From Cyclobacterium sp. (GTDB taxonomy: Bacteria > Bacteroidota > Bacteroidia > Cytophagales > Cyclobacteriaceae), in contig NZ_JABURL010000065.1 of the NCBI RefSeq assembly GCF_014762705.1, positions 1 through 64,000 on the forward strand: DNA of 64,000 bases. Reading direction: 5' to 3'. Below the pieces are notes generated by a model, which saw nothing but the letters and a program-made list of their open reading frames with translations, searched no databases and was not told where the DNA came from. A program made the position numbers and the translations under genes. How positions within the stretch are numbered: the stretch's first letter is position 1; each line of letters opens with the position of its first letter. Shown piece by piece: positions 43,878 to 57,356 of the stretch.

Positions 43878-45203
43878 TTATTGCCAGAGCTTCTCTTCCG
43901 CCTGGATGGCTTTTGAAAAGTCAATACCCGACGCCTTCATCTTCTCCTTGATTTCTTCCAAACAGAGGTTGCCAATACTACCCTCATGGGTGTGTTTTAC
44001 TTTGGTACCCGGAGCGAAGTTGTCTTTTTCTATATCCATTCCGACTTTTTTGTAGGCATCCCTGAAGGGCATTCCTTCCAGCACCAAACGATTCACTTCT
44101 TCAACACTAAATAAATAGGCGAAAAAATCATTGTCCAGCAGATTCTTTTTAACCTTTATGTTTTCCAACATCAAACGGGCGATTTTCAGGCTGTCATTTA
44201 ATTGTTCAAAGGCTGGAAAAATCGTTTCTTTTAACAATTGCAAGTCCCGGTGGTACCCTGTACTCAGGTTGGTCAACAGCATCATGATACTTTGAGGGTA
44301 AGCCTGGATCTGGTTGGTTTTAGCCCTGATCAGTTCAAATACATCCGGATTTTTCTTGTGCGGCATGATACTGGAACCAGTGGTCAGTTCATCCGGAAAA
44401 TGGATAAAACCAAAGTGCTGGTTCATGTACATGATGGCATCTGTAGCCAGGCGGTTTAAAGTTCCGGCTGTACCAGCAAGCGCGAAGGATAGGAATTTTT
44501 CAGTCTTTCCCCGGCTATTCTGGGCGTTGATCACATTGTAATGCATGTCAGCGAAGCCCAGTAATTCAGTAGTCATGGTTCTGTTTAAAGGAAAGGAGGA
44601 GCCATATCCCGCTGCTGAGCCCAAAGGATTGCGATTGACCAAAGCATAGGCCGATTGCCAAAGATGCATGTCCTCTGCCAATCCTTCGGCCAGGGAACCA
44701 AACCAAAGTCCAAAAGAGGAAGGCATGGCCAACTGGGTGTGCGTATAGCCAGGCATCAGGTCATCCTTGTGCTTTTCGGCAAGGTCCACCAATAAATCAA
44801 ATAGGTTTTGGGTTTCCTCTACGGTTTGCTGGATAGCATGCCGGTAATACAGCTTCAAATCCACCAAAACCTGGTCATTTCTAGACCTTCCGCTATGGAG
44901 TTTTTTGCCTATATCGCCATAGCGTTCTGTCAACAAAAATTCTACCTGGCTGTGCACATCCTCCACGCCTGGAGCAATGGTAAATATGCCTTTTCGTATT
45001 TCTTCCCGGATTTCCTTAAGCCCTTTAATCAGTACCTGCAGTTCTTTTTCGGTCAACAGGCCTATTGAAGCCAACATATGGGCATGTGCCATGGATCCGC
45101 TTACATCAAAAGGTGCTAATATAAGATCAAACTCCGGATCCCTGCCTATGGTAAAGGTTTCAACTTCCTTTTTGCTGGTTTTGTCTTTTTGCCAAAGTTT
45201 CAT
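43878..45203 (-). CDS. argH: Argininosuccinate lyase
   Basis: Last step of arginine synthesis: argininosuccinate to arginine and fumarate. 441 aa. The fumarase/aspartase superfamily signature GSSIMPHKKNPD is complete, with HSRSRNDQV and TPGYTHTQLAMPSSFG regions (here PGYTHTQLAMPSSF) and the N-terminal FDVSGSMAHAHML. The start codon overlaps the stop of the upstream deacylase gene (ATGA). It is the distal gene of the eight-gene arg operon. Confidence 0.96.
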   Translation of the reverse strand: MKLWQKDKTSKKEVETFTIGRDPEFDLILAPFDVSGSMAHAHMLASIGLLTEKELQVLIKGLKEIREEIRKGIFTIAPGVEDVHSQVEFLLTERYGDIGKKLHSGRSRNDQVLVDLKLYYRHAIQQTVEETQNLFDLLVDLAEKHKDDLMPGYTHTQLAMPSSFGLWFGSLAEGLAEDMHLWQSAYALVNRNPLGSAAGYGSSFPLNRTMTTELLGFADMHYNVINAQNSRGKTEKFLSFALAGTAGTLNRLATDAIMYMNQHFGFIHFPDELTTGSSIMPHKKNPDVFELIRAKTNQIQAYPQSIMMLLTNLSTGYHRDLQLLKETIFPAFEQLNDSLKIARLMLENIKVKKNLLDNDFFAYLFSVEEVNRLVLEGMPFRDAYKKVGMDIEKDNFAPGTKVKHTHEGSIGNLCLEEIKEKMKASGIDFSKAIQAEEKLWQ

Positions 45204-46285
45204 TTTTTGGGTTGGTTTAGTATGGAAAAATAGGTTTCCAACAGGTTGATGTAAATGGATATGCCCTGATTTATTTCTTCAATATAGATGAACTCGTCAG
45301 GACTGTGTGATCTGGCAGAATCTCCCGGACCGATTTTTACCGAAGGGTAGGGGATCAGGGCCTGATCTGATAAGGTAGGACTTCCGAAGGTTTCCAACTG
45401 CAAAGATTTCCCTGCCCTAACCATGGGGTGGTGTTCGTCAATATGAGAAGAGTTAAGCCGCAGTGAGCGGGGCTGAAGTTCGGCTTTTAATTCCTGTTGA
45501 AGTTCTTTCAAAGCTTCTTCCAGACTGTAGGCATCTGTTACCCGCACATCCAGGGTATAGGTGCATTGGTCTGGAACAACATTGTGTTGAGATCCTGCAT
45601 GAATAATGGTGGCAGATACTTTATTGGGTCCCAGAAAGGGGGAGACTTTTTTAAATTTAAAGCCCTTTATGGCAATTAAATCATCCAAGGCCTCATAGAT
45701 GGCATTAACGCCTTCTTCCCTGGCAGCATGACCTGCTTTGCCCTTCACGGTTGCGTCTACAACCATTAGACCCTTTTCGGCCACTGCCATTTTCATCTCT
45801 GTTGGTTCGCCTACTATGGCACAGGCCATTTCAGGGAGGAATGGAATCAGGGATTCCATTCCTCCCTTGCCGCTGATTTCTTCTTCTGCCGAAGCTACAA
45901 ACAACAAATTGACAGGCAGTGGTCTGCCAAGGAAATAAACAAAAGTAGCCAGCAAACTCACCAGACATCCCCCGGCATCATTGGACCCAAGTCCAAACAA
46001 TTTTCCGGCTGATGTGAGAGGATTATAGGGGTCGAGGGTATATCCCTGATTGGGTTTGACGGTATCATGATGAGAATTGAGCATGACAGTGGGAAGAGAT
46101 GAGTCATAATCCCTATGGAATGCCCAGATATTATTGCCTTTTCGATGGGTGCCAACTTTCTTTTCTTTTAGAAAAGCCTGGAGTATATCAGCAGTTTTGT
46201 CTTCGGATTTACTCAAAGAAGGTGTCCTGATAAGTTCTTTTAGTAAGTGTAAGGCCTCTTTTTTTATAATATCTAAATTTTCCAA
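45200..46285 (-). CDS. argE: M20 family N-acyl-ornithine/citrulline deacylase (ArgE-like)
   Basis: Removes the N-acyl group from the arginine pathway intermediate. 361 aa metallopeptidase: first metal motif MLNSHHDTVKP, bridging Asp in GLGSNDAGGCL, catalytic Glu in ASAEEEISGKGG, IVGEPTEMK, and the C-terminal His region GPGDSARSHSPDEFIYIEE. Given the transcarbamylase of acyl-ornithine type in this operon, the substrate is probably N-acetyl- or N-succinyl-citrulline rather than acyl-ornithine. It lies 30 nt after argB. Confidence 0.9.
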   Translation of the reverse strand: MENLDIIKKEALHLLKELIRTPSLSKSEDKTADILQAFLKEKKVGTHRKGNNIWAFHRDYDSSLPTVMLNSHHDTVKPNQGYTLDPYNPLTSAGKLFGLGSNDAGGCLVSLLATFVYFLGRPLPVNLLFVASAEEEISGKGGMESLIPFLPEMACAIVGEPTEMKMAVAEKGLMVVDATVKGKAGHAAREEGVNAIYEALDDLIAIKGFKFKKVSPFLGPNKVSATIIHAGSQHNVVPDQCTYTLDVRVTDAYSLEEALKELQQELKAELQPRSLRLNSSHIDEHHPMVRAGKSLQLETFGSPTLSDQALIPYPSVKIGPGDSARSHSPDEFIYIEEINQGISIYINLLETYFSILNQPKK

Positions 46286-46315
46286 GCCAGATAGGTATTT
46301 AAAAGCGGAAGTGAG

Positions 46316-47116
46316 TTAATACAAATCATATTTTAGGGATTCTATGATAGTGCCTGCATTTTTACCCCTGGAGGCCAAAAGTAAGTTTTCCGGCAAACCC
46401 ATCCAAACGTGATTCACTCCTTTATTAATGGCGTTAAAGGCGTTTTCCAATTTGGGAATCATTCCTGAATGAATGATTTTATCCTTCATCAATTCTTTAT
46501 AAATATCCTCATTGATCAGAGGAATCAGGGAGGCTTCATTTTCGGGATCCATGAGTACTCCCGTCTTGTCAAAACAAAAATAAAGTTTTACCCGATGTAT
46601 TTTGGCCAGTGCAGTAGCAATTTCCGAGGCGATGGTATCCGCATTGGTATTGAGCAACTGCCCCTTTCTGTTGTGGGTAATGGCGCAGAATACAGGGGCA
46701 ATGTTTTGCTTCATCAGAGATTCCAATAGGGCTGTATTGACACTTTCCACATCTCCTACAAATCCAAAATCTACTTCCTTTACAGGTCTTTTTACCGATT
46801 TAATGGCATTGCCGTCTGCACCGGTAAGTCCGATGGCATTCTGTCCATATGCTTGCAGCTGAGCCACCAGGTTTTTATTGATCAGGCCCGCATACACCAT
46901 GGTCACTACATCTAGTGTATCCTTATCCGTAATCCTTCTTCCAAGATGCATTTTTGGTGCTATGCCCAGAGATTTTCCTATTCTGCTGGCCATCACCCCA
47001 CCTCCGTGAACAAGTATTTTGGTCCCGGGAAATTTGGCGAATAGTTTAAGAAAATGGTTGGATTTATCAGGATGATCTATGACGTTACCCCCTATTTTGA
47101 TTACACTAATGTCCAT
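46316..47116 (-). CDS. argB: Acetylglutamate kinase (N-acylglutamate kinase)
   Basis: Phosphorylates N-acylglutamate with ATP. 266 aa amino-acid kinase fold: KIGGNVIDHPD at the N-terminus (Lys for phosphate binding), KILVHGGGVMASRIGKSLG for substrate binding, and NTNADTIASEIATALAKI with FDKTGVLMDP. Lacks the N-terminal helix of arginine-inhibited hexameric forms, so feedback inhibition may be weak (inference). Between the transcarbamylase (13 nt) and the deacylase (30 nt) genes. Confidence 0.94.
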   Translation of the reverse strand: MDISVIKIGGNVIDHPDKSNHFLKLFAKFPGTKILVHGGGVMASRIGKSLGIAPKMHLGRRITDKDTLDVVTMVYAGLINKNLVAQLQAYGQNAIGLTGADGNAIKSVKRPVKEVDFGFVGDVESVNTALLESLMKQNIAPVFCAITHNRKGQLLNTNADTIASEIATALAKIHRVKLYFCFDKTGVLMDPENEASLIPLINEDIYKELMKDKIIHSGMIPKLENAFNAINKGVNHVWMGLPENLLLASRGKNAGTIIESLKYDLY

Positions 47117-47129
47117 TGGTTTATTTGGT

Positions 47130-48071
47130 TTAGATCATCGTGTCAATGACAGCCTGGGCGGCAAAAATTCTGTTTTTTGCCTGAGTTTGGACCAGACTGC
47201 GTTTTCCATCCAATATTTCATCACTGAGTTCTAAATTTCTTCTGACAGGAAGACAATGCATTATTTTGGCCTGTTGGTTATTGCCTAAAGTGCTTTCTTT
47301 GAGCAACCAGTTTTCGTCTACTTTAAGGATTTTTCCATAGGGATTGAATGCACTCCAGTTTTTCACATATACAAAATCCGCATCCTCCAGAGCCTTTTTT
47401 TGATTGTATTCAATGGTAGCTCCCTGGGTAAATTGTTCATCAAGTTCATAACCCACCGGATGGGTAATGGTGAGGTCATGCCCACATCCCAATGCCCATT
47501 CAGAAAATGAATTGGCAACGGCATGGGGGATGGATTTGATATGGGGGGCCCAGGTAAGCACTACTTTTGGCTTTCTTTTTTCCTGAAAACTTTCCCTGAT
47601 GCTAACCATGTCTGCCAGGCTTTGTAGAGGATGCCTTATGGCACTTTCCAGGCTGATCACAGGAATACCTGAATATTTGATAAACTGATTGATAGTGAAA
47701 TCTTCTGTATCTTCTTCTTTGTTTGTCAAGGTGGGGAAAGCCCGAATGGCCAGCATGTCAAAATATCCACCCAGGACAGCAGCGGCATCCTTGATGTGTT
47801 CCACCTTGTTTTTATTCATCAGTACCCCGTCCTGCATTTCCAGGGCCCATGTCTCTTTGTCCATGTTCAATACGAAGCTATCCACTCCAAGATTGGTAGC
47901 GGCCAATTGGGTGCTGACCCTGGTTCGCAAACTTGGGTTTAAAAAAATCAATCCTAGCCGCTTTCCCTGCCCTTTTGTATTGCTTTTTAGAGGATTAGCC
48001 TTAAATTCCAAGGCCTTTTCGATCAATGTTTCGGCGATGGTTTTGTTTTCAAATTGGGTGAATCTATTCAT
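47130..48071 (-). CDS. argF: N-acyl-L-ornithine transcarbamylase (acetyl/succinyl type)
   Basis: Transfers the carbamoyl group to an N-acylated ornithine, giving N-acylcitrulline. From ATG at 48071 it has 313 aa; the longer frame begins upstream in argD and is rejected. The carbamoyl-phosphate motif reads NPSLRTRVSTQ rather than the STRT of classic ornithine transcarbamylase, and WALEMQDGVLMNKNKVEHI and MHCLPVRRNLELSDEI follow the acetyl/succinylornithine transcarbamylase pattern known from Xanthomonas and Bacteroides. Which acyl group is used rests on a loop residue I cannot assign reliably. It begins 4 nt after argD. Confidence 0.9.
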   Translation of the reverse strand: MNRFTQFENKTIAETLIEKALEFKANPLKSNTKGQGKRLGLIFLNPSLRTRVSTQLAATNLGVDSFVLNMDKETWALEMQDGVLMNKNKVEHIKDAAAVLGGYFDMLAIRAFPTLTNKEEDTEDFTINQFIKYSGIPVISLESAIRHPLQSLADMVSIRESFQEKRKPKVVLTWAPHIKSIPHAVANSFSEWALGCGHDLTITHPVGYELDEQFTQGATIEYNQKKALEDADFVYVKNWSAFNPYGKILKVDENWLLKESTLGNNQQAKIMHCLPVRRNLELSDEILDGKRSLVQTQAKNRIFAAQAVIDTMI

Positions 48072-48075
48072 TTTG

Positions 48076-49224
48076 TTAAACGGTCTCTTTCTGGTTGATG
48101 GTTGATTCCAGACTATTGATAAATAATTGCAACTCTTCTTGTTGAATACCAAGTGGGGGTAGCAGACGAATGGTATGTTTTCCGGCGGCACTACCTGTAA
48201 ATATGGCATGTTTCACCATAAGCTCAGAACGGTAGGCCGCAGCCTCTTGTTTCAAATCAAAGCCAATCATCAAACCTTTTCCCCTCACTCCGGTAATTTC
48301 AGATGAAACCCTGCTCAATGCCTTGATCAGGGAACTTCCCTGAGAAGCAGCATTTTCCATCAGGTTTTCTGACTCCATGACTTCCAGTACAGCCAACCCT
48401 GCCGCACAGGCGAGGTGGTTGCCGCCAAAGGTCGTTCCCAACATCCCATATTTTGCCTGAATATCAGGATGGATCAGAACCCCACCTATGGGGAAACCAT
48501 TGCCCATGCCTTTGGCCATGGTGATTAAATCAGGCTCCAGTCCGTCCGTCCATTGGTGGGCAAAAAATTTACCTGTCCGTCCATGGCCAGTCTGTACCTC
48601 ATCCAAAATCAATTTGGCTCCGTATTGTCTGGCCAACCTGGCCAAACCTGTCAAAAAATCCGGTTCGGCCACCTGAATTCCATTTACCCCTTGTATGGCC
48701 TCAACAATGATCGCCGCAATATCTTTGCTTTTGAGTTGCTTTTCTACTCCGGCTAAATCACCGGACCTTTCAAAATATACCTGGTGGCCAGCATTGAAAG
48801 GAGACCTAATATTGGGGTTGTCCGTAACAGCTACTGCTCCGGAAGTTCGACCATGAAAAGCTCCTTTAAAAGCGATCACACCTGATTTTCCTGTGGCAAA
48901 AGAGGCCAATTTGAGTGCGTTTTCATTTGCTTCGGCACCCGAGTTACACAAGAATAGCTGGTAATCCGGCAGTCCGGATAATTCACCTAATTTTCCTGCG
49001 AGATCTTTTTGAATCGGTATATTTACCGAATTGGAATAAAAGGCTATTTTTCCCAATTGTTCGTTTATCCGGGAGACAAAATGAGGATGGCTGTGTCCTA
49101 TAGAAATCACCGCATGGCCACCATACAGGTCCAGGTATTTCCGGCCTTCTCGGTCCCAAATATATACCCCTTCCGCCTTCTCGGGCGTTACATTCATCAA
49201 TGGATAGACATCAAATAATTGCAT
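48076..49224 (-). CDS. argD: Acetylornithine aminotransferase (acyl-ornithine type)
   Basis: PLP-dependent transamination of N-acylglutamate semialdehyde to N-acylornithine. 382 aa class III aminotransferase: FLCNSGAEANENALKLA, AFHGRTSGAVAVT, the cofactor Asp in LILDEVQTGHGRTG and catalytic Lys in MAKGMGNGFPIGG. The C-terminal KGLMIGFDL also fits. Next to argC and the transcarbamylase gene in the operon. Confidence 0.95.
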   Translation of the reverse strand: MQLFDVYPLMNVTPEKAEGVYIWDREGRKYLDLYGGHAVISIGHSHPHFVSRINEQLGKIAFYSNSVNIPIQKDLAGKLGELSGLPDYQLFLCNSGAEANENALKLASFATGKSGVIAFKGAFHGRTSGAVAVTDNPNIRSPFNAGHQVYFERSGDLAGVEKQLKSKDIAAIIVEAIQGVNGIQVAEPDFLTGLARLARQYGAKLILDEVQTGHGRTGKFFAHQWTDGLEPDLITMAKGMGNGFPIGGVLIHPDIQAKYGMLGTTFGGNHLACAAGLAVLEVMESENLMENAASQGSSLIKALSRVSSEITGVRGKGLMIGFDLKQEAAAYRSELMVKHAIFTGSAAGKHTIRLLPPLGIQQEELQLFINSLESTINQKETV

Positions 49225-49289
49225 TTTTTTGTGTAAGTTTAAATGGAAGATAAGAGCTTTTCCGCTCTATCTACAGGGGACGTAAATCA

Positions 49290-50258
49290 TTAAAATGCAA
49301 CGCTTTTTAATTGCAAACCTGCTTTTTCCTCCAATCCAAAGGCAAGGTTCATGTTTTGCACTGCCTGACCAGAGGCCCCTTTCAATAAGTTATCAATGGC
49401 TGCATAGGCCACCAATTGACCAGCTTCCTTTTTAAGATGCACCAGACATTTATTGGTGTTGACTACCTGCTTGAGGTCGATATCATTTTTGCTGACATGG
49501 GTATAGGCAGCATTCTGATAAAAGTCCCCGTAGACCTGATAAGCCTCCTCCAAAGAGCCTTCGAATGGAAAATAGGCTGTTACCCAAATCCCTCTGGTGA
49601 AATTACCCCTGTAGGGTACAAACAGCACCTGCTTATCAAAACCTGTATTCAGCTTGCCAAAAGTCTGATTGATTTCTTTGAGGTGCTGGTGGGTAAAAAG
49701 CTTATAGACTGACACGTTTTGGTTTCTGTGACTGAAATGCGTGGTTGCACTTAGGCTTTTCCCTGCCCCGGTGCTACCGGTAATTCCCGACACATGGAGG
49801 TTGTCCTGAACCCATCCCTTTTTAATGGCCGGGGCCACTGCCAATTGTATGCAGGTGGCAAAGCATCCCGGGTTAGCTATTTTTATAGCCTGCTGAATTT
49901 GATTTTTATTGGTTTCAGGCAAGCCGTAAACAAAACCGTTTGACTCATCCCTGAAATCCGTACTCAGGTCGATAATCACTGTCTTTTCAGCAAAGGATTG
50001 TTTTTCCAGAAATGGTTTTGCTTCTCCATGAGGCAAACAAAGAAAAACCAGGTCCAGGTTATTGCTGTCAACCTGGTCTGTGAATACAAGAGAGGCATCA
50101 CCAATCAGATCCGGGTGGACCTCCTCCAGTTTTTTACCTTTCTGGCTGTTGCTGTGGATCCAGACTAGTTCAACATGAGGATGATGCACCAGAAGCCTCA
50201 CCAATTCACCACCTGTATATCCGGCCGCACCGACAATTCCCGTTCTAATGGTCTTCAT
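49290..50258 (-). CDS. argC: N-acetyl-gamma-glutamyl-phosphate reductase
   Basis: NADPH-dependent reduction of N-acylglutamyl phosphate to the semialdehyde. From ATG at 50258 it has 322 aa. Rossmann motif GIVGAAGYTGGELVRLL, catalytic Cys in NPGCFATCIQLA, and the HRNQNVSVYKLFTHQH and PYRGNFTRGIWVT regions. The start at 50258 overlaps the end of argG by 14 nt; the longer frame to 50330 runs inside argG and is rejected. Confidence 0.95.
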   Translation of the reverse strand: MKTIRTGIVGAAGYTGGELVRLLVHHPHVELVWIHSNSQKGKKLEEVHPDLIGDASLVFTDQVDSNNLDLVFLCLPHGEAKPFLEKQSFAEKTVIIDLSTDFRDESNGFVYGLPETNKNQIQQAIKIANPGCFATCIQLAVAPAIKKGWVQDNLHVSGITGSTGAGKSLSATTHFSHRNQNVSVYKLFTHQHLKEINQTFGKLNTGFDKQVLFVPYRGNFTRGIWVTAYFPFEGSLEEAYQVYGDFYQNAAYTHVSKNDIDLKQVVNTNKCLVHLKKEAGQLVAYAAIDNLLKGASGQAVQNMNLAFGLEEKAGLQLKSVAF

Positions 50259-51450
50259 GAGCATGATTTTGATTAACCTGATAAAAAATAGCTGTCTGGT
50301 TGCCAAATATTTTGGTGAAACCTTTGACATCCTCTGCGGTATAACCTTTGTTCATTTCCCCATAACTGCCAAATTTGGAGGACATCAGGTCATGTTTGGA
50401 GTTGATACCAATCATACTGAATCGATAGGGATGCAGCTGAATTTTGACTTCCCCGCTAACGTAAGTCTGGGTGCTGGCCATAAAACTTTCCAAATTGCGC
50501 ATGACCGGATCCAGGTAATGTCCTTCATGCAGGTGGTTGCCATAGAACTCGGCCAGCTGATTTTTCCAGTAACCCTGCCATTTGGTGAGGGTATGTTTTT
50601 CCAATAGCTGGTGGGCTTTGATGATGAGCATGGGTGCGGCGGCTTCAAAGCCAACTCTTCCCTTGATTCCAATGATGGTATCCCCCACATGGATGTCCCT
50701 GCCTATACCAAATGGTCCTGCTATTTCCTGGACCTTTAAAATGGCTTCTACAGGATGGCTGAACAGTTGCCCGTTAACCCGCGTTATTTCTCCTTTTTCA
50801 AATCCAATGCTGATGGTCTCGGAATCAGTTTTGCTCACCTGAGTAGGATAAGCTTCCTCTGGCAAGGCCTGATCGGATGAAAGGGTTTCTTTTCCTCCTA
50901 CTGAGGTGCCCCAGATGCCCTTATTAATGGAATAAGCAGCTTTTTCAAAATTCATGCTTACTCCGTGCTTCTTAAGGAAGTTTATTTCTTCTTCCCTGCT
51001 AAGTTTGAGATCTCTTATAGGAGTGATGATTTCCACATCCGGGAGGATGGTTTGGAAAATCATGTCAAAACGCACCTGATCATTACCTGCACCCGTACTT
51101 CCGTGTGCGATACAATTGGCTCCTATACTTTTTGCATGTTCGGCCAGGGCCTTGGCCTGCAAAATTCGCTCTGCACTTACAGAAAGTGGGTAGGTTTGGT
51201 TTTTCAATACATTGCCGAAAACCAAGAATTTAATGACCTCATCATAGTACGTTCTGGTCACATCCAGAACTTTAAATGAAGCTACACCTAATTTTTCGGC
51301 CCTTTCTCCAATACCTTTTAATTCCTCTTTTTCAAAACCTCCGGTATTTACCAATACAGCATGCACTTCGTACCCTTTTTCCTTACTCAAATGGATGGCA
51401 CAAAATGTAGTATCCAAACCGCCACTGTATGCTAAAACTACTTTTTTCAT
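50245..51450 (-). CDS. argG: Argininosuccinate synthase
   Basis: ATP-dependent joining of citrulline and aspartate. 401 aa. The PP-loop AYSGGLDTTFCA is at the N-terminus, followed by GSTGAGNDQVRFD for citrulline binding. Later segments GPFGIGRDIHVGDTIIGIKGR and VSGEVKIQLHPY also fit. It leads argC with a 14-nt overlap and follows the GNAT gene after 169 nt, so an internal promoter or leader is possible. Confidence 0.95.
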   Translation of the reverse strand: MKKVVLAYSGGLDTTFCAIHLSKEKGYEVHAVLVNTGGFEKEELKGIGERAEKLGVASFKVLDVTRTYYDEVIKFLVFGNVLKNQTYPLSVSAERILQAKALAEHAKSIGANCIAHGSTGAGNDQVRFDMIFQTILPDVEIITPIRDLKLSREEEINFLKKHGVSMNFEKAAYSINKGIWGTSVGGKETLSSDQALPEEAYPTQVSKTDSETISIGFEKGEITRVNGQLFSHPVEAILKVQEIAGPFGIGRDIHVGDTIIGIKGRVGFEAAAPMLIIKAHQLLEKHTLTKWQGYWKNQLAEFYGNHLHEGHYLDPVMRNLESFMASTQTYVSGEVKIQLHPYRFSMIGINSKHDLMSSKFGSYGEMNKGYTAEDVKGFTKIFGNQTAIFYQVNQNHAHEDH

Positions 51451-51619: not shown

Positions 51620-52318
51620 CTAAGAAGACTGGTTTACTTTATCTTTGACTTTTGCCAGGGCATTTTTTCCCTTGGCAATATTAAGAAACATGGCCCGTTT
51701 GATCTTGATCAAACGCTCAAAAAGACTAAGATTCTTGTTGAATTGAGCGGAAAGTTTCTTCTGTTCCGCTTTTTTTACGCTTTTTGGCTCATAAAGCATG
51801 GCTGTACAAAGGCAATTGGATCTGTTTTTACTTGTGAGTATTGGGTAATTTACACAGCTTTGACAGCCTTTCCAGAAATCGTCATCTGTAGTAAGGTCAG
51901 AATAGCTGACGGGATAATATCCGAGTTCGGAGTTGATTTTCATAACAGCAGCCCCTGTGGTTAGGCCAAATATTTTGGCATCAGGATACTTCTTTCTGCT
52001 GAGTTTGAATACCTCTCTTTTTATTTCCCTGGCCAATCCGTGTTTTCTGAATTCAGGTGAAACAATTAATCCGGAATTGGCCACAAATTTCCCATGACCC
52101 CAGGCCTCAATATAGCAGAATCCTGCCCACTGGCCGGACGCAGTAAGGGCAATGACCGCCTTTCCTTCTTTCATTTTGGTTTTGATGTACTCAGGAGAGC
52201 GTTTGGCTATTCCTGTACCCCTGGCCTGGGCTGAAAGTTCCATTTCTTCAGTGATGGTTTCAGCATATTGGCAATGTTCTTCGCCGGCAGGTTTAATGAT
52301 AAATTTTTGATTGGCCAT
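51620..52318 (-). CDS. GNAT acyltransferase, candidate N-acylglutamate synthase
   Basis: First gene of the arg operon. 232 aa with a GNAT core: FCYIEAWGHGKFVANSGLIVSPEFRKHGLAREIK contains the acyl-CoA pyrophosphate loop (RKHGLA). The region FGLTTGAAVMKINSELGYYPV also fits. A Cys-rich stretch (CQSCVNYPILTSKNRSNCLC) near residue 155-175 could bind metal, unusual for a GNAT enzyme. Position suggests it starts the pathway by acylating glutamate with acetyl- or succinyl-CoA. That role is inferred from context only. Confidence 0.8.
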   Translation of the reverse strand: MANQKFIIKPAGEEHCQYAETITEEMELSAQARGTGIAKRSPEYIKTKMKEGKAVIALTASGQWAGFCYIEAWGHGKFVANSGLIVSPEFRKHGLAREIKREVFKLSRKKYPDAKIFGLTTGAAVMKINSELGYYPVSYSDLTTDDDFWKGCQSCVNYPILTSKNRSNCLCTAMLYEPKSVKKAEQKKLSAQFNKNLSLFERLIKIKRAMFLNIAKGKNALAKVKDKVNQSS

Positions 52319-52845: not shown

Positions 52846-54066
52846 ATGGCAAAATGTTTCGCACTAATGGGTTGGAGTTTACCCGTAATTGAAAGTATGC
52901 AAAAACTTAACAAACCCTATGTTGTAGTATCCTACCCGGATTTTGAAGGCTATGCCAAAGAAAATAATATTCCTTTCGTCTCTTATCAATTTGATGAATG
53001 GAGCGATTCTTCCAATTCTTTGGACCTGAAAGCCAAGCTGGATGAATTTGGTGCCGATGTTGCCGTGCCTCTTTTTGAGGAAACTGTAGAATGGGCGGGA
53101 GCTTTGAATTCACTTTACAGGGACGATCCAAGGGTGCTCAACAGGGCTTTTTTGTTTAGAAATAAGGCCATGATGAAGCGAAAAGCATTAATTGGCGGCC
53201 TTCGTGTAGGACTATTTGAAGAAGTTTATAGTAAAGAAGGTGTCTTAAATTTTATGGAAAGGCTGAATCAGGCCAATCTTCAGATAGATGGTGAAGAAGA
53301 TAGCTGGGTACATATTAAACCTTTTGCATCAGCGGGAACGGTAGGTCACCGGTTGCTGCGATCCAAAAAGGACGTTGAAAACAAATGTGTTGACGAAGAT
53401 TTCCCCTGCCTAGCTGAGAGTCATCTGCCGGGTAAAGAGTTTTCATGTGAAGCGTTTATTCACGGTGGTAAAATCAGATTTTTAAATATTACTGAATATG
53501 TAAAACTGGGCTACAGCAACTTTATCCCTGAAGGCAATTACCTGCATACCAAAAGGGATAAAATAATGAAAGAAATGCAAAAGCTGGTGGATATTTTTGG
53601 TATTCAGTATGGAATGATCCATCCGGAATGGTTTCTGACCGAAAATGATGAAATCAGCTTTGGTGAAACTGCCTGCAGAATTCCTGGTGGACATATATTG
53701 GAACTTTGTGGTAAGGCCTATGGTTTTGATGCCCTGGCTGCTTTTGTCCTTTGTCACGATCCAGATTTAACGGAAGAGGAATTAGCAGAAATTTTACCAC
53801 CTTTGGATGCCAGGCCTAAGGAATTTTATGGAAATGTCATGATTTATCCCCATAAAAATCAGATTTCCAAACTGATTATTCCGGAGGAATTAAAAGAAGA
53901 GTCTTATTTTCTGGACCATAATTTGATACCTCCCATGACCACTCAAAAAATCAGTGACAGAGAGGGGTTTGGAAATCATTTCGGAACTGTTAATTTTAAG
54001 GGAGAAGATCCGGACAGGATGACGGAACTATTACTCCACTATGAAAATGTGGATTTTTATCATTAA
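52846..54066 (+). CDS. ATP-grasp domain ligase of unknown specificity
   Basis: 406 aa. The protein has the three ATP-grasp parts: N-terminal pre-grasp domain (about 1-100, GADVAVPLFEETVEW), ATP-binding lid with Lys107, Lys158 in VHIKPFASAGTVG and Glu191 in ESHLPGKEFSCEAFI, and the metal site near Glu261 and E274/R278 (GETACRIPGGHI). It should couple ATP hydrolysis to form an amide or similar bond between a carboxylate and an amine via an acyl phosphate. It matches carbamoyl-phosphate/carnosine-synthase-like ATP-grasp enzymes more than D-Ala-D-Ala ligase. A hairpin separates it from the next two genes on the same strand. Substrates are unknown; amino acids or a peptide are likely. Confidence 0.85.
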   Translation: MAKCFALMGWSLPVIESMQKLNKPYVVVSYPDFEGYAKENNIPFVSYQFDEWSDSSNSLDLKAKLDEFGADVAVPLFEETVEWAGALNSLYRDDPRVLNRAFLFRNKAMMKRKALIGGLRVGLFEEVYSKEGVLNFMERLNQANLQIDGEEDSWVHIKPFASAGTVGHRLLRSKKDVENKCVDEDFPCLAESHLPGKEFSCEAFIHGGKIRFLNITEYVKLGYSNFIPEGNYLHTKRDKIMKEMQKLVDIFGIQYGMIHPEWFLTENDEISFGETACRIPGGHILELCGKAYGFDALAAFVLCHDPDLTEEELAEILPPLDARPKEFYGNVMIYPHKNQISKLIIPEELKEESYFLDHNLIPPMTTQKISDREGFGNHFGTVNFKGEDPDRMTELLLHYENVDFYH

Positions 54067-54134
54067 TCAGTAAAAGCTAATAAGTTATATTTGATAGTCT
54101 AGTGATTTATTTCTTCATTATGTAAAATCAGGTA

Positions 54135-54172
54135 GAAAAAATATTGACAGCTAAGTTTGTCAATATTTTTTC
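54135..54172 (+). terminator. 15-bp perfect hairpin with T-run between ATP-grasp and downstream gene
   Basis: Positions 54135-54149 (GAAAAAATATTGACA) pair perfectly with 54158-54172 (TGTCAATATTTTTTC) around an 8-nt loop. The A/T-rich stem ending in T residues suits a weak or partial terminator in both directions. The loop also spells TAAGTTTG (54152-54159), an exact TAnnTTTG promoter box, so the site might instead start transcription of the next gene, though no TTG lies 19-21 nt upstream. Confidence 0.6.
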
Positions 54173-54210
54173 TTTTCACAATTGTAAATATTTTAAGTGT
54201 TAAACCATTC

Positions 54211-56205
54211 ATGCAAAATCAGGAGATAGTAGAGAGAAGCCAGGAGCTTTTTGAGGAGTTATTCAAAGAATACAAAGAAGCTACAGCGCTAACCAGCAAA
54301 CAAAAAGCCCAGAAAATAATGGGGCAATTGGATACCTGGTGTGATAGTGAGGAAGGAATATCCAGGATTTACGAAAATATTCCCAAATTGGTGGGTGCAG
54401 GCATTTTAAAAGATTCACCCTGGGAGCATCCGGGAAAATTGGTTCCTGCTTTGGTCAATGGCACTTATAAAAGTGGACACCCCAATTCCACCATTGAATT
54501 GCTCAGTGAGCTTAGGATGCTGGCCATTGCAAAAGGGAAAATGAAATCGGATGAAGTTAGTGCCGCAGAAGCCGAAAATTTTGTTCAGGAGGTAATCGTC
54601 TACAATCTGGAATTTGTTTTCAATGAGCCTCAGGAAGAAACCCGGTTGATAATGAGTGGGCATGAGTTGAAAAAAGTACATTCTCTTTTTCTTTTTTTAT
54701 CCAATAGTGTTAAACTTTCGAAAGTCAAGTCAAAGCTTGCGGAGGAATTGAAATTGATCTGTGAGCAACGTCCGGTGGTCACAGAGAAACAACGAAGGAT
54801 CATCGCCTTGGTGAAAGAAAAAATTGAACTGGACCCCAATGACCCTGAGGATGAAGATCTATTGGCATTTCAAAGGAGCATTTACCGACCTACCGAAAGA
54901 ACAACTGGTAAAACGTTTCAGAAATACCGGCAGGAATTGGATAAACTGACCATTGCAGAACTTGAGTATGAAGCAAAGGAAATGGGAAAAGTGATGTTGC
55001 AATTTGGCCTGGTTAGTCAATACCATGCGGTATTATTGCTTCATCTTGTAAGAAAAGAATTGTATGAACTGGTACCTCCATGTTTTGCGCTAAGTGCGGC
55101 AGGTGAAGCCAGGTATCACGAATACAGGGATTTTGTGAGTTTTTTAATTGTTCAGGTAATTGATCCCTTCAATGCACAATGTTTGTATGGGCTCGCCAAA
55201 ATGCTTGAGAACGGCGTATTGGCCAGAGAAGCTGTTCGTTCGGGTTTATTTAATCTTTCTAAGATTACCATTCATCCTGAGGTAGTCAAAAGAATCTTGA
55301 AATCCACCAGAACGCCCCACGAGAAGGTTACCCCTAAACAATACCTGATAGGGTCACTTTTCAGGATTTTGGGTCAGCCACTTGGCGTAGGCCAGGGAAA
55401 TAATCCCACCTGCCAAAGTGCCCGGGGTATCAGCATGTGGAGTCAGCATGCACCGGCCAAATTGATCCATATGGTGCAAACAGCAGCAGAATATGATGAC
55501 CTATCCTTCAGGTTTGAGGGGCAGGAGGTGAAATATTCTCAAACGCAACCGGGATTGGTACAGGTTCTGGACCATCACCTGGATGCCGTATCCGTCACTT
55601 TGGTTCCCATGCTCGACAGGATTTATAACGACATGATGTTGCGCGCTTCGGGAAGGGGAGAGGATCCGCACAAGTGGGTCAACCCAGCCCTGTATGGCCA
55701 ATGGATTCAGATTGGCTTTGCCTCTGCATACGACTATCTGTACAATGCCATCATTGATTTTGATGGATTTGTCAGGGTATTTTATTCCATGTTTCATCCG
55801 AAATACAACGGAGGTCACAGGATGGTATACCCAAATCCGGTCGGAATTTTTGTTACTACGGCAAAAGGGGAAATGTTGGGCTTTCATGCTGTTTCTTTGC
55901 TCCGCATAGATGAAGACAATACAGGGGAATTGAGGGCATATTTTCTCAATCCGAATAATGAAGGCCGGCAAGATTGGGGGCAGGATATCAAACCTTCTGT
56001 TTATGGTAAAGGTGAAATTCACGGTGAATCTTCACTTCCCTTTCACCAATTTGCAGCCAGGACTTATGCCTTTCACTACAATAATCTTGAAGCAGCGGGT
56101 ATAATGAACAATGTGCCCGCCAAAGAGGTTGAAAAAGTAAAAAAACTAGCAAAAGAAAGTTGGGGAAAATCTTATACCTGGTTAGAAACCAAAAGAAAAT
56201 GGTAA
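54211..56205 (+). CDS. Unknown 664-aa protein with papain-like Cys/His/Asn pattern
   Basis: Family not recognised. From ATG at 54211 it has 664 aa. The first 380 or so residues are largely helical and charged, without signal peptide. The C-terminal part shows a thiol-enzyme pattern in papain order: Cys401 in NNPTCQSARGISMW (Cys before a helix), His559 in EMLGFHAVSLLRI and Asn580 in AYFLNPNNEG. This order and local sequence (hydrophobic-GFHAV then strand then FLNPNN) are those of papain-fold proteases, amidases and transglutaminases. It overlaps the alanine racemase gene by 7 nt, so the two are coupled. It might hydrolyse or transfer the product of the ATP-grasp enzyme upstream. The triad is an inference from motif shape, not an alignment. 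Confidence 0.7.
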   Translation: MQNQEIVERSQELFEELFKEYKEATALTSKQKAQKIMGQLDTWCDSEEGISRIYENIPKLVGAGILKDSPWEHPGKLVPALVNGTYKSGHPNSTIELLSELRMLAIAKGKMKSDEVSAAEAENFVQEVIVYNLEFVFNEPQEETRLIMSGHELKKVHSLFLFLSNSVKLSKVKSKLAEELKLICEQRPVVTEKQRRIIALVKEKIELDPNDPEDEDLLAFQRSIYRPTERTTGKTFQKYRQELDKLTIAELEYEAKEMGKVMLQFGLVSQYHAVLLLHLVRKELYELVPPCFALSAAGEARYHEYRDFVSFLIVQVIDPFNAQCLYGLAKMLENGVLAREAVRSGLFNLSKITIHPEVVKRILKSTRTPHEKVTPKQYLIGSLFRILGQPLGVGQGNNPTCQSARGISMWSQHAPAKLIHMVQTAAEYDDLSFRFEGQEVKYSQTQPGLVQVLDHHLDAVSVTLVPMLDRIYNDMMLRASGRGEDPHKWVNPALYGQWIQIGFASAYDYLYNAIIDFDGFVRVFYSMFHPKYNGGHRMVYPNPVGIFVTTAKGEMLGFHAVSLLRIDEDNTGELRAYFLNPNNEGRQDWGQDIKPSVYGKGEIHGESSLPFHQFAARTYAFHYNNLEAAGIMNNVPAKEVEKVKKLAKESWGKSYTWLETKRKW

Positions 56206-57356
56206 GACACTCATCAAGAATAGAATTAAAACAATCTGCTTATAAAAGTAATATCAATTTTATCAGGAAGAAGATAGGCGAAAAGCCTATCCTCTCTTCT
56301 GTTGTTAAGGCCAATGCCTACGGACACGGGATTGAATCTTTCGTGCCTATGGCAGAAAAGTGCGGTATCAATCACTTTTGTGTGGCCTCCTCATTCGAAG
56401 CCGAACAAGTTTTGCGGGTTTGCAAAAAGGAGAGTCATGTGGTGATTATGGGTATCATCTATCAAGAGGATATACCATGGGCAATAGAGAATGATATTGG
56501 CTTTTTTGTATACAATTATGACCGGTTACCAATAGCCCTTGAGGCAGCCAAAAAGGTAGGCAAACCCGCGAGAGTACATGTAGAAGTAGAAACCGGAGCC
56601 AACAGGACTGGAATGCATGAGAAAGAATTTCCAAAAGCTTTGACATTTTTGAAAAAAAATACGGAATGGATTTACTTTGAAGGTCTTTGTACTCATTTTG
56701 GAGGAGCGGAAAGTATTGCCAACCAGTTTAAAATTGACATGCAGCACAAGAGGTATAAAGCGGCCCTTAAAATATGTAAGGAAAAGAACATTCTACCAGA
56801 ATTACGCCACATTGCTTGCTCTGCAGCAGCCCTTGCGATGAAGGATACTGTTTATGATATGGTACGCATAGGAGTGGCACAGTACGGTTTCTGGCCAAGC
56901 CCTGATGTATATTTTGCCCATCTGCATGAAACCAACAAAAAATCCGACACTTCCCTAAAGAGGATTTTTAGTTGGAAAACCGATGTAATGGATATCAGAA
57001 ATGTGGATCAGGGAGAGTTTATTGGATACGGGACAGCTTTTCAAGCCACCCAGCCCATGACAGTTGCCGTTTTACCATTGGGATATTCCAATGGATATCC
57101 CCGGGCTTTGTCCAATAGGGGTCAGGTGTTGATAAAAGGCAAAAAAGCTCCGATAGTTGGCCTGATCAATATGAACTTGTTTATGGTGGATATCACCCAT
57201 ATCCCGGAAGTAAAGGTTGGAGACGAAGTGGTGTTGATTGGAAGACAAAATAATAGTGTAATCAATGTTTCCAGTTTTACCAATGTCACCCAGCTGCTTA
57301 ACAATGAAATGCTTAGCAGGCTTCCTGCCGCCATACCAAGAACAGTGGTCAGGTAA
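56199..57356 (+). CDS. Alanine racemase family PLP enzyme
   Basis: Fold-type III PLP enzyme that racemises alanine or a related amino acid. From ATG at 56199, overlapping the previous gene by 7 nt, it has 385 aa. PLP Lys37 lies in VVKANAYGHG, ETGANRTGMH and MVRIGVAQYGFWPS line the active site, and the second catalytic base, Tyr277, sits in GEFIGYGTAF. At the position of the conserved SMD/CMD Asp the sequence has INMN (Asn326), so substrate or chemistry may differ. The C-terminal LSRLPAAIPR is typical. As a cassette member it may supply a D-amino acid. The household alr may lie elsewhere, so I leave the symbol blank. Confidence 0.85.
   Translation: MVRHSSRIELKQSAYKSNINFIRKKIGEKPILSSVVKANAYGHGIESFVPMAEKCGINHFCVASSFEAEQVLRVCKKESHVVIMGIIYQEDIPWAIENDIGFFVYNYDRLPIALEAAKKVGKPARVHVEVETGANRTGMHEKEFPKALTFLKKNTEWIYFEGLCTHFGGAESIANQFKIDMQHKRYKAALKICKEKNILPELRHIACSAAALAMKDTVYDMVRIGVAQYGFWPSPDVYFAHLHETNKKSDTSLKRIFSWKTDVMDIRNVDQGEFIGYGTAFQATQPMTVAVLPLGYSNGYPRALSNRGQVLIKGKKAPIVGLINMNLFMVDITHIPEVKVGDEVVLIGRQNNSVINVSSFTNVTQLLNNEMLSRLPAAIPRTVVR

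Follow-up and report, generated by a model that had tools for sequence, protein, structure and literature searches.

The 64,000-nucleotide stretch of a Cyclobacterium sp. contig analysed here, referred to below as the window, comes from a genome of 6.08 Mb and carries a cassette of three genes on its forward strand. These encode an ATP-grasp ligase of 406 amino acids with the predicted fold of the L-amino-acid ligases RizA, BL00235 and BacD (52846..54066), a 664-residue protein termed P664, in which about 390 all-alpha N-terminal residues precede a putative papain-like thiol enzyme (54211..56205), and a pyridoxal phosphate (PLP) enzyme of the alanine racemase family termed ALR, 385 residues in length (56199..57356). 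P664 begins with ATG at 54211 and ALR with ATG at 56199; TTG codons lie upstream in the same frames at 54157 and 56160, respectively. An earlier note on this DNA had placed the three genes here, with the P664 and ALR open reading frames (ORFs) overlapping by 7 nt, and our check of the ORFs agrees. We tentatively propose, giving the whole reading a probability of roughly 0.42, that the cassette directs small-molecule biosynthesis, the product being an ornithine-type amide or dipeptide that serves as a salt-related metabolite.

The C-terminal part of P664 can be assessed from its conservation and from an AlphaFold model (predicted local distance difference test score, pLDDT, 89.7; predicted template modelling score, pTM, 0.84), in which some 390 helical residues are followed by a mixed domain holding the candidate catalytic residues. 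The motif QGNNPTC (55393..55413, forward strand) runs from Gln395, the presumptive oxyanion residue, to Cys401, the presumptive nucleophile, which opens a helix (401-413); the His559 codon (55885..55887) falls on the strand 555-568 of the model, and the Asn580 codon (55948..55950) directly past the strand 574-579. In the papain layout a Gln stands six residues ahead of the Cys, the Cys at the start of a helix, the His on a strand and the Asn after the next strand; as modelled, the four residues of P664 follow this order and occupy these places. They are invariant in 105 of 105 distinct P664 homologues, a count that is biased for Gln395 and Cys401, since the pattern by which many homologues were found contains both, while His559 and Asn580 are part of no pattern. 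The earlier note had singled out Cys401, His559 and Asn580, and that pattern is present and kept throughout.

The window P664 matches no Pfam and no NCBIfam family, and neither sequence nor profile searches revealed a credible relative in the PDB. A Pfam search with 54 members of the P664 family returned 32 weak and scattered families, and the 25 of these that were examined include no papain-clan family. Excerpts of a 2023 classification of papain-like enzymes describe it as built on Pfam and MEROPS families (PMC10318531); as far as those excerpts go, no match to its Pfam families was seen in the Pfam scan of the window protein or among the 25 of 32 families from the 54 members. Foldseek leads with a papain fold were 5wdk (rank 1), 8oig (rank 4), 1cv8 (rank 9) and 4k7c (rank 14), with E values of 0.05-0.9 and probabilities up to 0.63, and a second comparison, against viral entries, placed a papain-family protein at rank 1 (E 0.12, probability 0.57). 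Because relatives are lacking in Pfam, NCBIfam and the PDB while the four residues are kept in papain-like places, P664 looks like a new papain-like family. On the strength of residues and model we consider it very likely that the C-terminal part has a papain fold, and just as likely that P664 is an active thiol enzyme of the papain type; the earlier suggestion of a papain-like thiol protein is thus borne out, the structural matches being weak. Members of clan CA (C1 peptidases, staphopain, transglutaminase-like proteins) share with P664 the Gln-x5-Cys spacing, the Cys at a helix start, the His on a strand and the Asn past the next strand; P664 differs from them in its all-alpha N-terminal half of about 390 residues, its lack of a Pfam family and its tie to a ligase. 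Inspection of its N-terminus by eye, with no predictor used, did not reveal a signal peptide. In two Bacilli loci a further P664 gene, diverged from the first, lies close to it (L138:7126-11390, on the opposite strand, and L094:7947-12597); the catalytic residues are kept.

One genome per species was scanned with an 11-row P664 alignment, for which the pattern could demand Gln395 and Cys401 and neither His559 nor Asn580; other loci come from whole-genome profile searches, in which no pattern was needed. The scan recovered at least 594 stretches, 580 of them encoding P664 relatives, some perhaps representing two patterns of one gene. In 75 of the best 80 of these loci, which are the basis of the counts that follow, P664 is directly preceded on its own strand by the gene of the ATP-grasp enzyme, whose identity was confirmed separately in three of them (L062, L063 and L072). 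Among the exceptions, L035, L047, L054 and L066 are cut by a contig edge that falls inside P664 or shortly ahead of it, leaving L077, where the ATP-grasp gene lies on another contig of the same genome, as the sole true split. The two stretches that carry the ATP-grasp gene without P664 are explained likewise: L146 holds the ATP-grasp gene that is unlinked in the L077 genome, and L149 stops about 90 bases past the ATP-grasp gene of the L066 genome, whose P664 contig starts inside the gene. ORFs of matching size, judged by size only, flank P664 on both sides in 18 of 18 relative loci.

By record title, the 80 loci comprise 46 of Bacteroidota type (a count that includes Balneolia, Rhodothermaceae and L039, a metagenome-assembled genome, or MAG, labelled Rickettsiales), 9 from Gemmatimonadota, 23 from Bacilli, one Oligoflexia MAG and one unnamed MAG. 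Among them the nearest named relatives of the window are Cyclobacterium species, P664 being 98% identical in C. plantarum; identity between the window protein and those of Bacilli is about 40-44%. Distribution is patchy: P664 occurs in 4 of 395 genomes at the level of the phylum, in 20 of 390 Cytophagales (the order), in 19 of 244 from the class of G263 and in 9 of 159 from a single Bacilli family. A Halomonas record, the sole one with P664 among 72,556 plasmid records, carries the pair 30 bp apart. Distances in the P664 and ATP-grasp trees run parallel (Spearman 0.83; 97 loci, sample of 60), a coefficient given without a p-value because the sequences are related. In both trees the Oligoflexia copy lies closest to those of Bacteroidota, an indication that the pair was transferred or that the contig is misplaced. 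We regard the cassette as real with near certainty. The earlier note had proposed a candidate new biosynthetic cassette, recognised under no name; it is conserved, and a literature search, which left most subscription journals outside its scope, found no name or description of it among the best-ranked titles and abstract openings.

The ATP-grasp protein is the sole match of its kind in the genome. Its AlphaFold model (pLDDT 89.7) is most similar in the PDB to RizA (4wd3, E 2e-22), then to BL00235 (3vot) and BacD/YwfE (3vmm), and these L-amino-acid ligases make up six of the seven best matches (ranks 1, 2 and 4-7, E 2e-22 to 2e-18). At an E threshold of 0.1, phmmer likewise matches no PDB sequence other than RizA 4wd3 (E 3e-6). 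The protein falls below curated cut-offs, scoring 23 bits against the 27 required for Pfam ATP-grasp_4 and lying far under those of all NCBIfam models, including that for BacD (14.9 against 850). It resembles the three ligases in ATP-grasp fold and length; it is just 14-19% identical to them in structural alignments and differs further in its partner, P664. The model thus gives it the predicted fold of peptide-bond-forming amino-acid ligases, in keeping with the ATP-grasp assignment of the earlier note; the fold does not tell the substrates.

ALR, which the earlier note had counted into the cassette, is not a constant member. Of the 46 Bacteroidota-type loci, 45 have it after P664, L077 being the exception; none of the 34 others (Gemmatimonadota, Bacilli, the Oligoflexia MAG and the unnamed MAG) does, although in 5 of these 34 the downstream DNA is shorter than 1 kb. 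The expectation that P664 would co-occur with both partners therefore holds for the ATP-grasp enzyme and fails for the racemase outside Bacteroidota, and a D-residue, which had been proposed as a feature of the product, cannot be universal in it. ALR scores 278.5 bits against TIGR00492 (cut-off 168) and retains the PLP lysine, Lys37, in 62 of 62 sequences and the catalytic Tyr277 in 60 of 60 readable ones. In these respects it is like Alr; where 4y2w and the genome's own MurF-Alr have Cys-Met-Asp, it has Asn324-Met325-Asn326, again in 60 of 60 readable sequences. The substitution no more than hints at a difference in substrate. Three racemases of this genome exceed the cut-off, namely ALR, an 841-residue frame that reads as a MurF-Alr fusion, and a paralogue 46% identical to ALR that adjoins an M20 hydrolase and has Thr-Met-Asn; given the fusion and the paralogue, ALR is unlikely to be the housekeeping racemase. 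The ornithine racemase Orr was not among the NCBIfam matches listed for ALR, and the literature, when searched for racemase footprints, yielded no result. An attempt to read specificity from the residue matching Tyr354 was dropped, as this position varies among ordinary racemases.

Two further observations concern the surroundings of the racemase gene. Proteins of 255-280 residues are encoded right after it in Marivirga- and Marinoscillum-type loci (L031:11164-11931, L038:11140-11958 and L204:6555-7397); by eye they look like single-pass membrane coiled-coil proteins, and the two that were tested match no Pfam or NCBIfam family. The genes that come after the cassette at L216:8761-12695 encode a D-serine-dehydratase-like PLP enzyme and what appears by eye to be a set of TRAP transporter proteins; they hint at the handling of D-amino acids.

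The link to ornithine is new here. It was examined in 390 Cytophagales genomes, the P664 and ArgJ searches being taken to cover the same genomes from their identical size and labels, and a P664 split across two contigs (G853) being counted once. P664 was found in 20 genomes, ArgJ over its cut-off in 25 and both in 17; thus ArgJ is present in 17 of 20 genomes with P664 and in 8 of 370 without it (Fisher p 5e-21, a value inflated by kinship). By genus the figures, inflated likewise, are 13 of 13 against 1 of 116. Outside one family (f1), only two genomes, G033 and G672, have either gene, and both have both. In a second listing, which shares some of these genomes, 12 of 14 P664 genomes have ArgJ over the cut-off; of the others, G024 has none and the match in G141 breaks off where its stretch is about to end. 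argJ tends to sit in a set, argB, argD, argC and argJ occurring together in 15 of 20 ArgJ stretches (L251-L270); most of the remaining stretches have argC if not the full set. This argBDCJ set directly adjoins the cassette on the same strand in L148 and L145 and stands one gene away, again on the same strand, in L038, L041 and L204; argDCJ lies beside the cassette, likewise on its strand, in L039.

The window itself adds to this link. To the left of the cassette, on the reverse strand, lies an arginine operon (43878..51450) with argH, an argE/dapE-like gene, argB, an N-acetylornithine-type carbamoyltransferase, argD, argC and argG, of which argH, argD, argC and argG were named by eye. The earlier note had described the cassette as lying between unrelated operons; for the left neighbour this needs a caveat, its chemistry being relevant. 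The closest type for the carbamoyltransferase is the N-acetylornithine one, against which it scores 277 bits (cut-off 288). The N-acetylornithine-type arginine pathway bypasses free ornithine, and ArgJ is an enzyme of free-ornithine synthesis. Since the arginine operon of this genome would not pass through free ornithine, the second set, argBDCJ, found on contig C32 of the genome is best explained as serving a separate ornithine need, and the cassette would offer a reason for ArgJ in some Cytophagales even where, as here, arginine synthesis bypasses that compound.

A possible extension of the system is seen in genome G844 (L256:92-9821), where argBDCJ is directly preceded by genes for an SSF symporter, a GNAT acetyltransferase, an M20 amidohydrolase, a paralogue of the racemase and an Orr-like racemase that scores 323 bits (cut-off 480). 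The M20 protein exceeds the general amidohydrolase cut-off; its next best match, below cut-off, is the ectoine-breakdown deacetylase DoeB2. Similar SSF, GNAT, M20 and racemase genes are split between two places in the window genome (L272:6809-9762 and L271:9773-12074, on C65 and C79). Such a module might serve to take up or recycle the cassette compound. In three other stretches (L260, L266 and L267) argBDCJ stands opposite genes that look by eye like those of hydroxyproline breakdown (epimerase, dihydrodipicolinate-synthase-like protein, aldehyde dehydrogenase), and two of the three genomes are without P664.

In Bacilli the neighbourhood is different. An AblB-type GNAT acetyltransferase is the next gene upstream of the pair in 7 of the 23 Bacilli loci, and also in L139-L142; within one Bacilli family it precedes the pair in 8 of the 9 genomes that have P664. 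Three such neighbours were tested (L075, L087 and L098), and all exceed the TIGR03827 cut-off, as does a member in each of 7 genomes of the first AblB-linked group. Lysine 2,3-aminomutase (AblA) was not found in 6 of 7 AblB-linked genomes; for this reason beta-lysine is unlikely as the substrate, and the enzyme beside the pair probably acts on another diamino acid. Excerpts of a 2013 review give the N-delta-acetylornithine acetyltransferase of Halobacillus halophilus as unidentified at that date (PMC4187189), which we note as a lead only. In L098 the gene next downstream of P664 encodes ectoine synthase. Judged from their names, the genera represented in the scan are presumably largely marine, soda-lake or halophilic.

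The data show the conservation and linkage of the genes, the predicted fold of the ligase, the intact thiol triad and the co-occurrence with ArgJ; from them we surmise the following scheme, whose reactions, ornithine substrate, cellular location and role are inferred. The ATP-grasp enzyme would activate an amino acid as its acyl-phosphate and couple the latter with an amine to form a dipeptide-like amide. P664, which is probably cytosolic, would take over the amide by way of an acyl-enzyme at Cys401, then transfer, cyclise or trim it. In Bacteroidota the PLP racemase may supply or set a D-centre. The likeliest building block would be ornithine or a close diamino acid, furnished in Bacteroidota by the dedicated argBDCJ set, and in some Bacilli the AblB-type acetyltransferase would cap its side-chain amine. 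The product would most plausibly act as an intracellular salt-related metabolite, either a compatible solute or a nitrogen reserve. Because ligase and thiol enzyme travel together through several phyla, joined in Bacteroidota by the racemase and the tie to ornithine, the product is probably an undescribed small amino-acid conjugate, one that would occur in many marine and salt-lake bacteria given the spread of P664 over at least 580 matching stretches, some perhaps of one gene, of which 80 loci were read. That the product is a small molecule we consider likely, and for an ornithine-type building block we would offer even odds; a compatible-solute role is doubtful. Distinctly unlikely, taken as a whole, is the fullest version of the scheme, in which a new class of ornithine-based amide (with a D-centre in Bacteroidota), made by a ligase and a papain-like acyl-transferring enzyme, is kept as solute or nitrogen reserve in salt-adapted bacteria across phyla, supplied with ornithine by its own argBDCJ set and perhaps taken up and broken down by a module of its own. 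Through the ornithine link, the chemistry of the cassette becomes directly testable. The interpretation of the earlier note is, overall, partly supported.

Two known systems invite comparison. The compatible-solute pathway for N-acetylglutaminylglutamine amide (NAGGN) consists of the amidotransferase AsnO and Ngg, a fused acetyltransferase/ATP-grasp protein. It has in common with the cassette ATP-grasp peptide ligation, salt-loving hosts and, in some Bacilli, an acetyltransferase; in the cassette, GNAT and ATP-grasp are separate genes, and P664 has no NAGGN counterpart. An AsnB-type gene lies near the pair in L098 only, in divergent orientation, and scores 361 bits against TIGR03104 (cut-off 570). 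As the required set of AsnO and fused Ngg was not found, the NAGGN pathway was rejected. Iyer et al. in 2009 reportedly described clusters of ATP-grasp amidoligases with transglutaminase- or peptidase-like partners, a design that is the same in general terms, so that the pairing of such a ligase with a thiol enzyme would in those terms be of a known kind.

Several findings weigh against the proposed scheme. All Foldseek matches of P664 fall short of E 0.001, and its papain-fold leads superpose poorly (root-mean-square deviation 7-21). The model that scores best for ALR is that of alanine racemase itself. ArgJ occurs without P664 in 8 genomes and P664 without a sound ArgJ in three (G886, G898 and G944, the last with a weak match), and all but two of the genomes with ArgJ or P664 belong to one family. 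The arg genes are linked to the cassette in few neighbourhoods, about three of them independent: L148 and the L038 group may represent one event, and in the Cyclobacterium case, counted among the three, the arginine operon is divergent. Of the 23 Bacilli loci, the 16 that lack AblB showed no pathway gene, only genus-level synteny, and ectoine synthase was found in a single locus. An Rfam search near the cassette in 17 loci found only rRNA. A SigB-like promoter is present in 2 of 28 Bacilli upstream regions, both from Domibacillus, against 0.49 expected, and control by SigB was set aside. Finally, a terminator-like hairpin separates the ATP-grasp gene from P664 in the window.

The exceptions to the ArgJ association, its confinement to one family save for two genomes, and a racemase score well above the TIGR00492 cut-off would also be expected if an amide or dipeptide were made from something other than ornithine, ArgJ accompanying P664 through another need for ornithine (ornithine lipids, polyamines) or through a shared habitat, and the racemase feeding D-Ala to the ligase. 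We consider this rather unlikely, for argBDCJ lies beside the cassette on its strand in five loci (L148, L145, L038, L041 and L204), the association persists at the level of genera (13 of 13 against 1 of 116), and the genome already has a MurF-fused racemase from whose Cys-Met-Asp the cassette enzyme departs. By analogy with tubulin tyrosine ligase and vasohibin, the pair might instead run a protein-tagging cycle, in which the ATP-grasp enzyme would extend one end of a protein by an amino acid that P664 would take off again. The near-constant pairing of ligase and papain-like enzyme would suit such a cycle, as would the large all-alpha half of P664, for which Foldseek gave insignificant leads to alpha-solenoid protein-binding folds. 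The nearest folds of the ligase, however, are those of small-molecule ligases; the pair has links to ornithine genes, to a side-chain acetyltransferase and to one ectoine synthase gene; and no conserved substrate-like protein adjoins it in the neighbourhoods listed. Protein tagging is for these reasons improbable.

The ligase relatives RizA and BacD make dipeptides of the rhizocticin and bacilysin kind, and the cassette could by extension produce a secreted antibiotic or signal, with P664 as a transfer or self-protection enzyme. The chance of this appears smaller still: no exporter, regulator or immunity gene conserved across clades lies beside the pair in the neighbourhoods listed (the permease, kinase and regulators that recur upstream of it in 8 Bacilli loci of one clade look like plain synteny), and conservation of P664 across phyla, at the 40-44% identity given above, fits a housekeeping-type product better. 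Modification of the cell wall, by a D-residue or ornithine placed in peptidoglycan, would accommodate the ornithine link, and an ATP-grasp enzyme with a racemase is known to make some cross-bridge residues. It is highly improbable nonetheless, as no wall genes were recognised beside the pair when the listings were inspected by eye, P664 shows by eye no signal peptide, and the racemase is missing from the Bacilli loci. An intracellular ornithine-type amide or dipeptide remains our preferred product.

Between the arginine operon and the cassette lies a GNAT gene on the reverse strand (51620..52318; Pfam GNAT), for which an NCBIfam search returned no family. From its place it perhaps provides the acetylglutamate step of the arginine operon; it was rejected as a cassette member, since it adjoins the cassette solely in Cyclobacterium loci.

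The hairpin mentioned above (54135..54172, forward strand) was found by RNA folding of the gap between the ATP-grasp gene and P664 (54067-54210) and has A/T runs on both flanks. The fold of this gap has a z score of -2.63, and none of 200 shuffled sequences folded equally well. In L020 and L021 the counterparts have a changed stem sequence with the pairing kept, and because stems differ and still pair, the hairpin may possibly control transcription termination or stoichiometry. A strong hairpin with A/T-rich flanks also occupies this gap in the Cytophagales loci L019-L021, L025-L028, L030, L036, L048, L051 and L205. It was not seen in the gaps of 26-27 nt that were folded (L022, L023, L037 and L042), nor in several longer ones elsewhere (L052, L053, L056, L059, L064 and L143). 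In four Bacilli loci of one family (L121-L124) an rRNA match starts shortly past P664.

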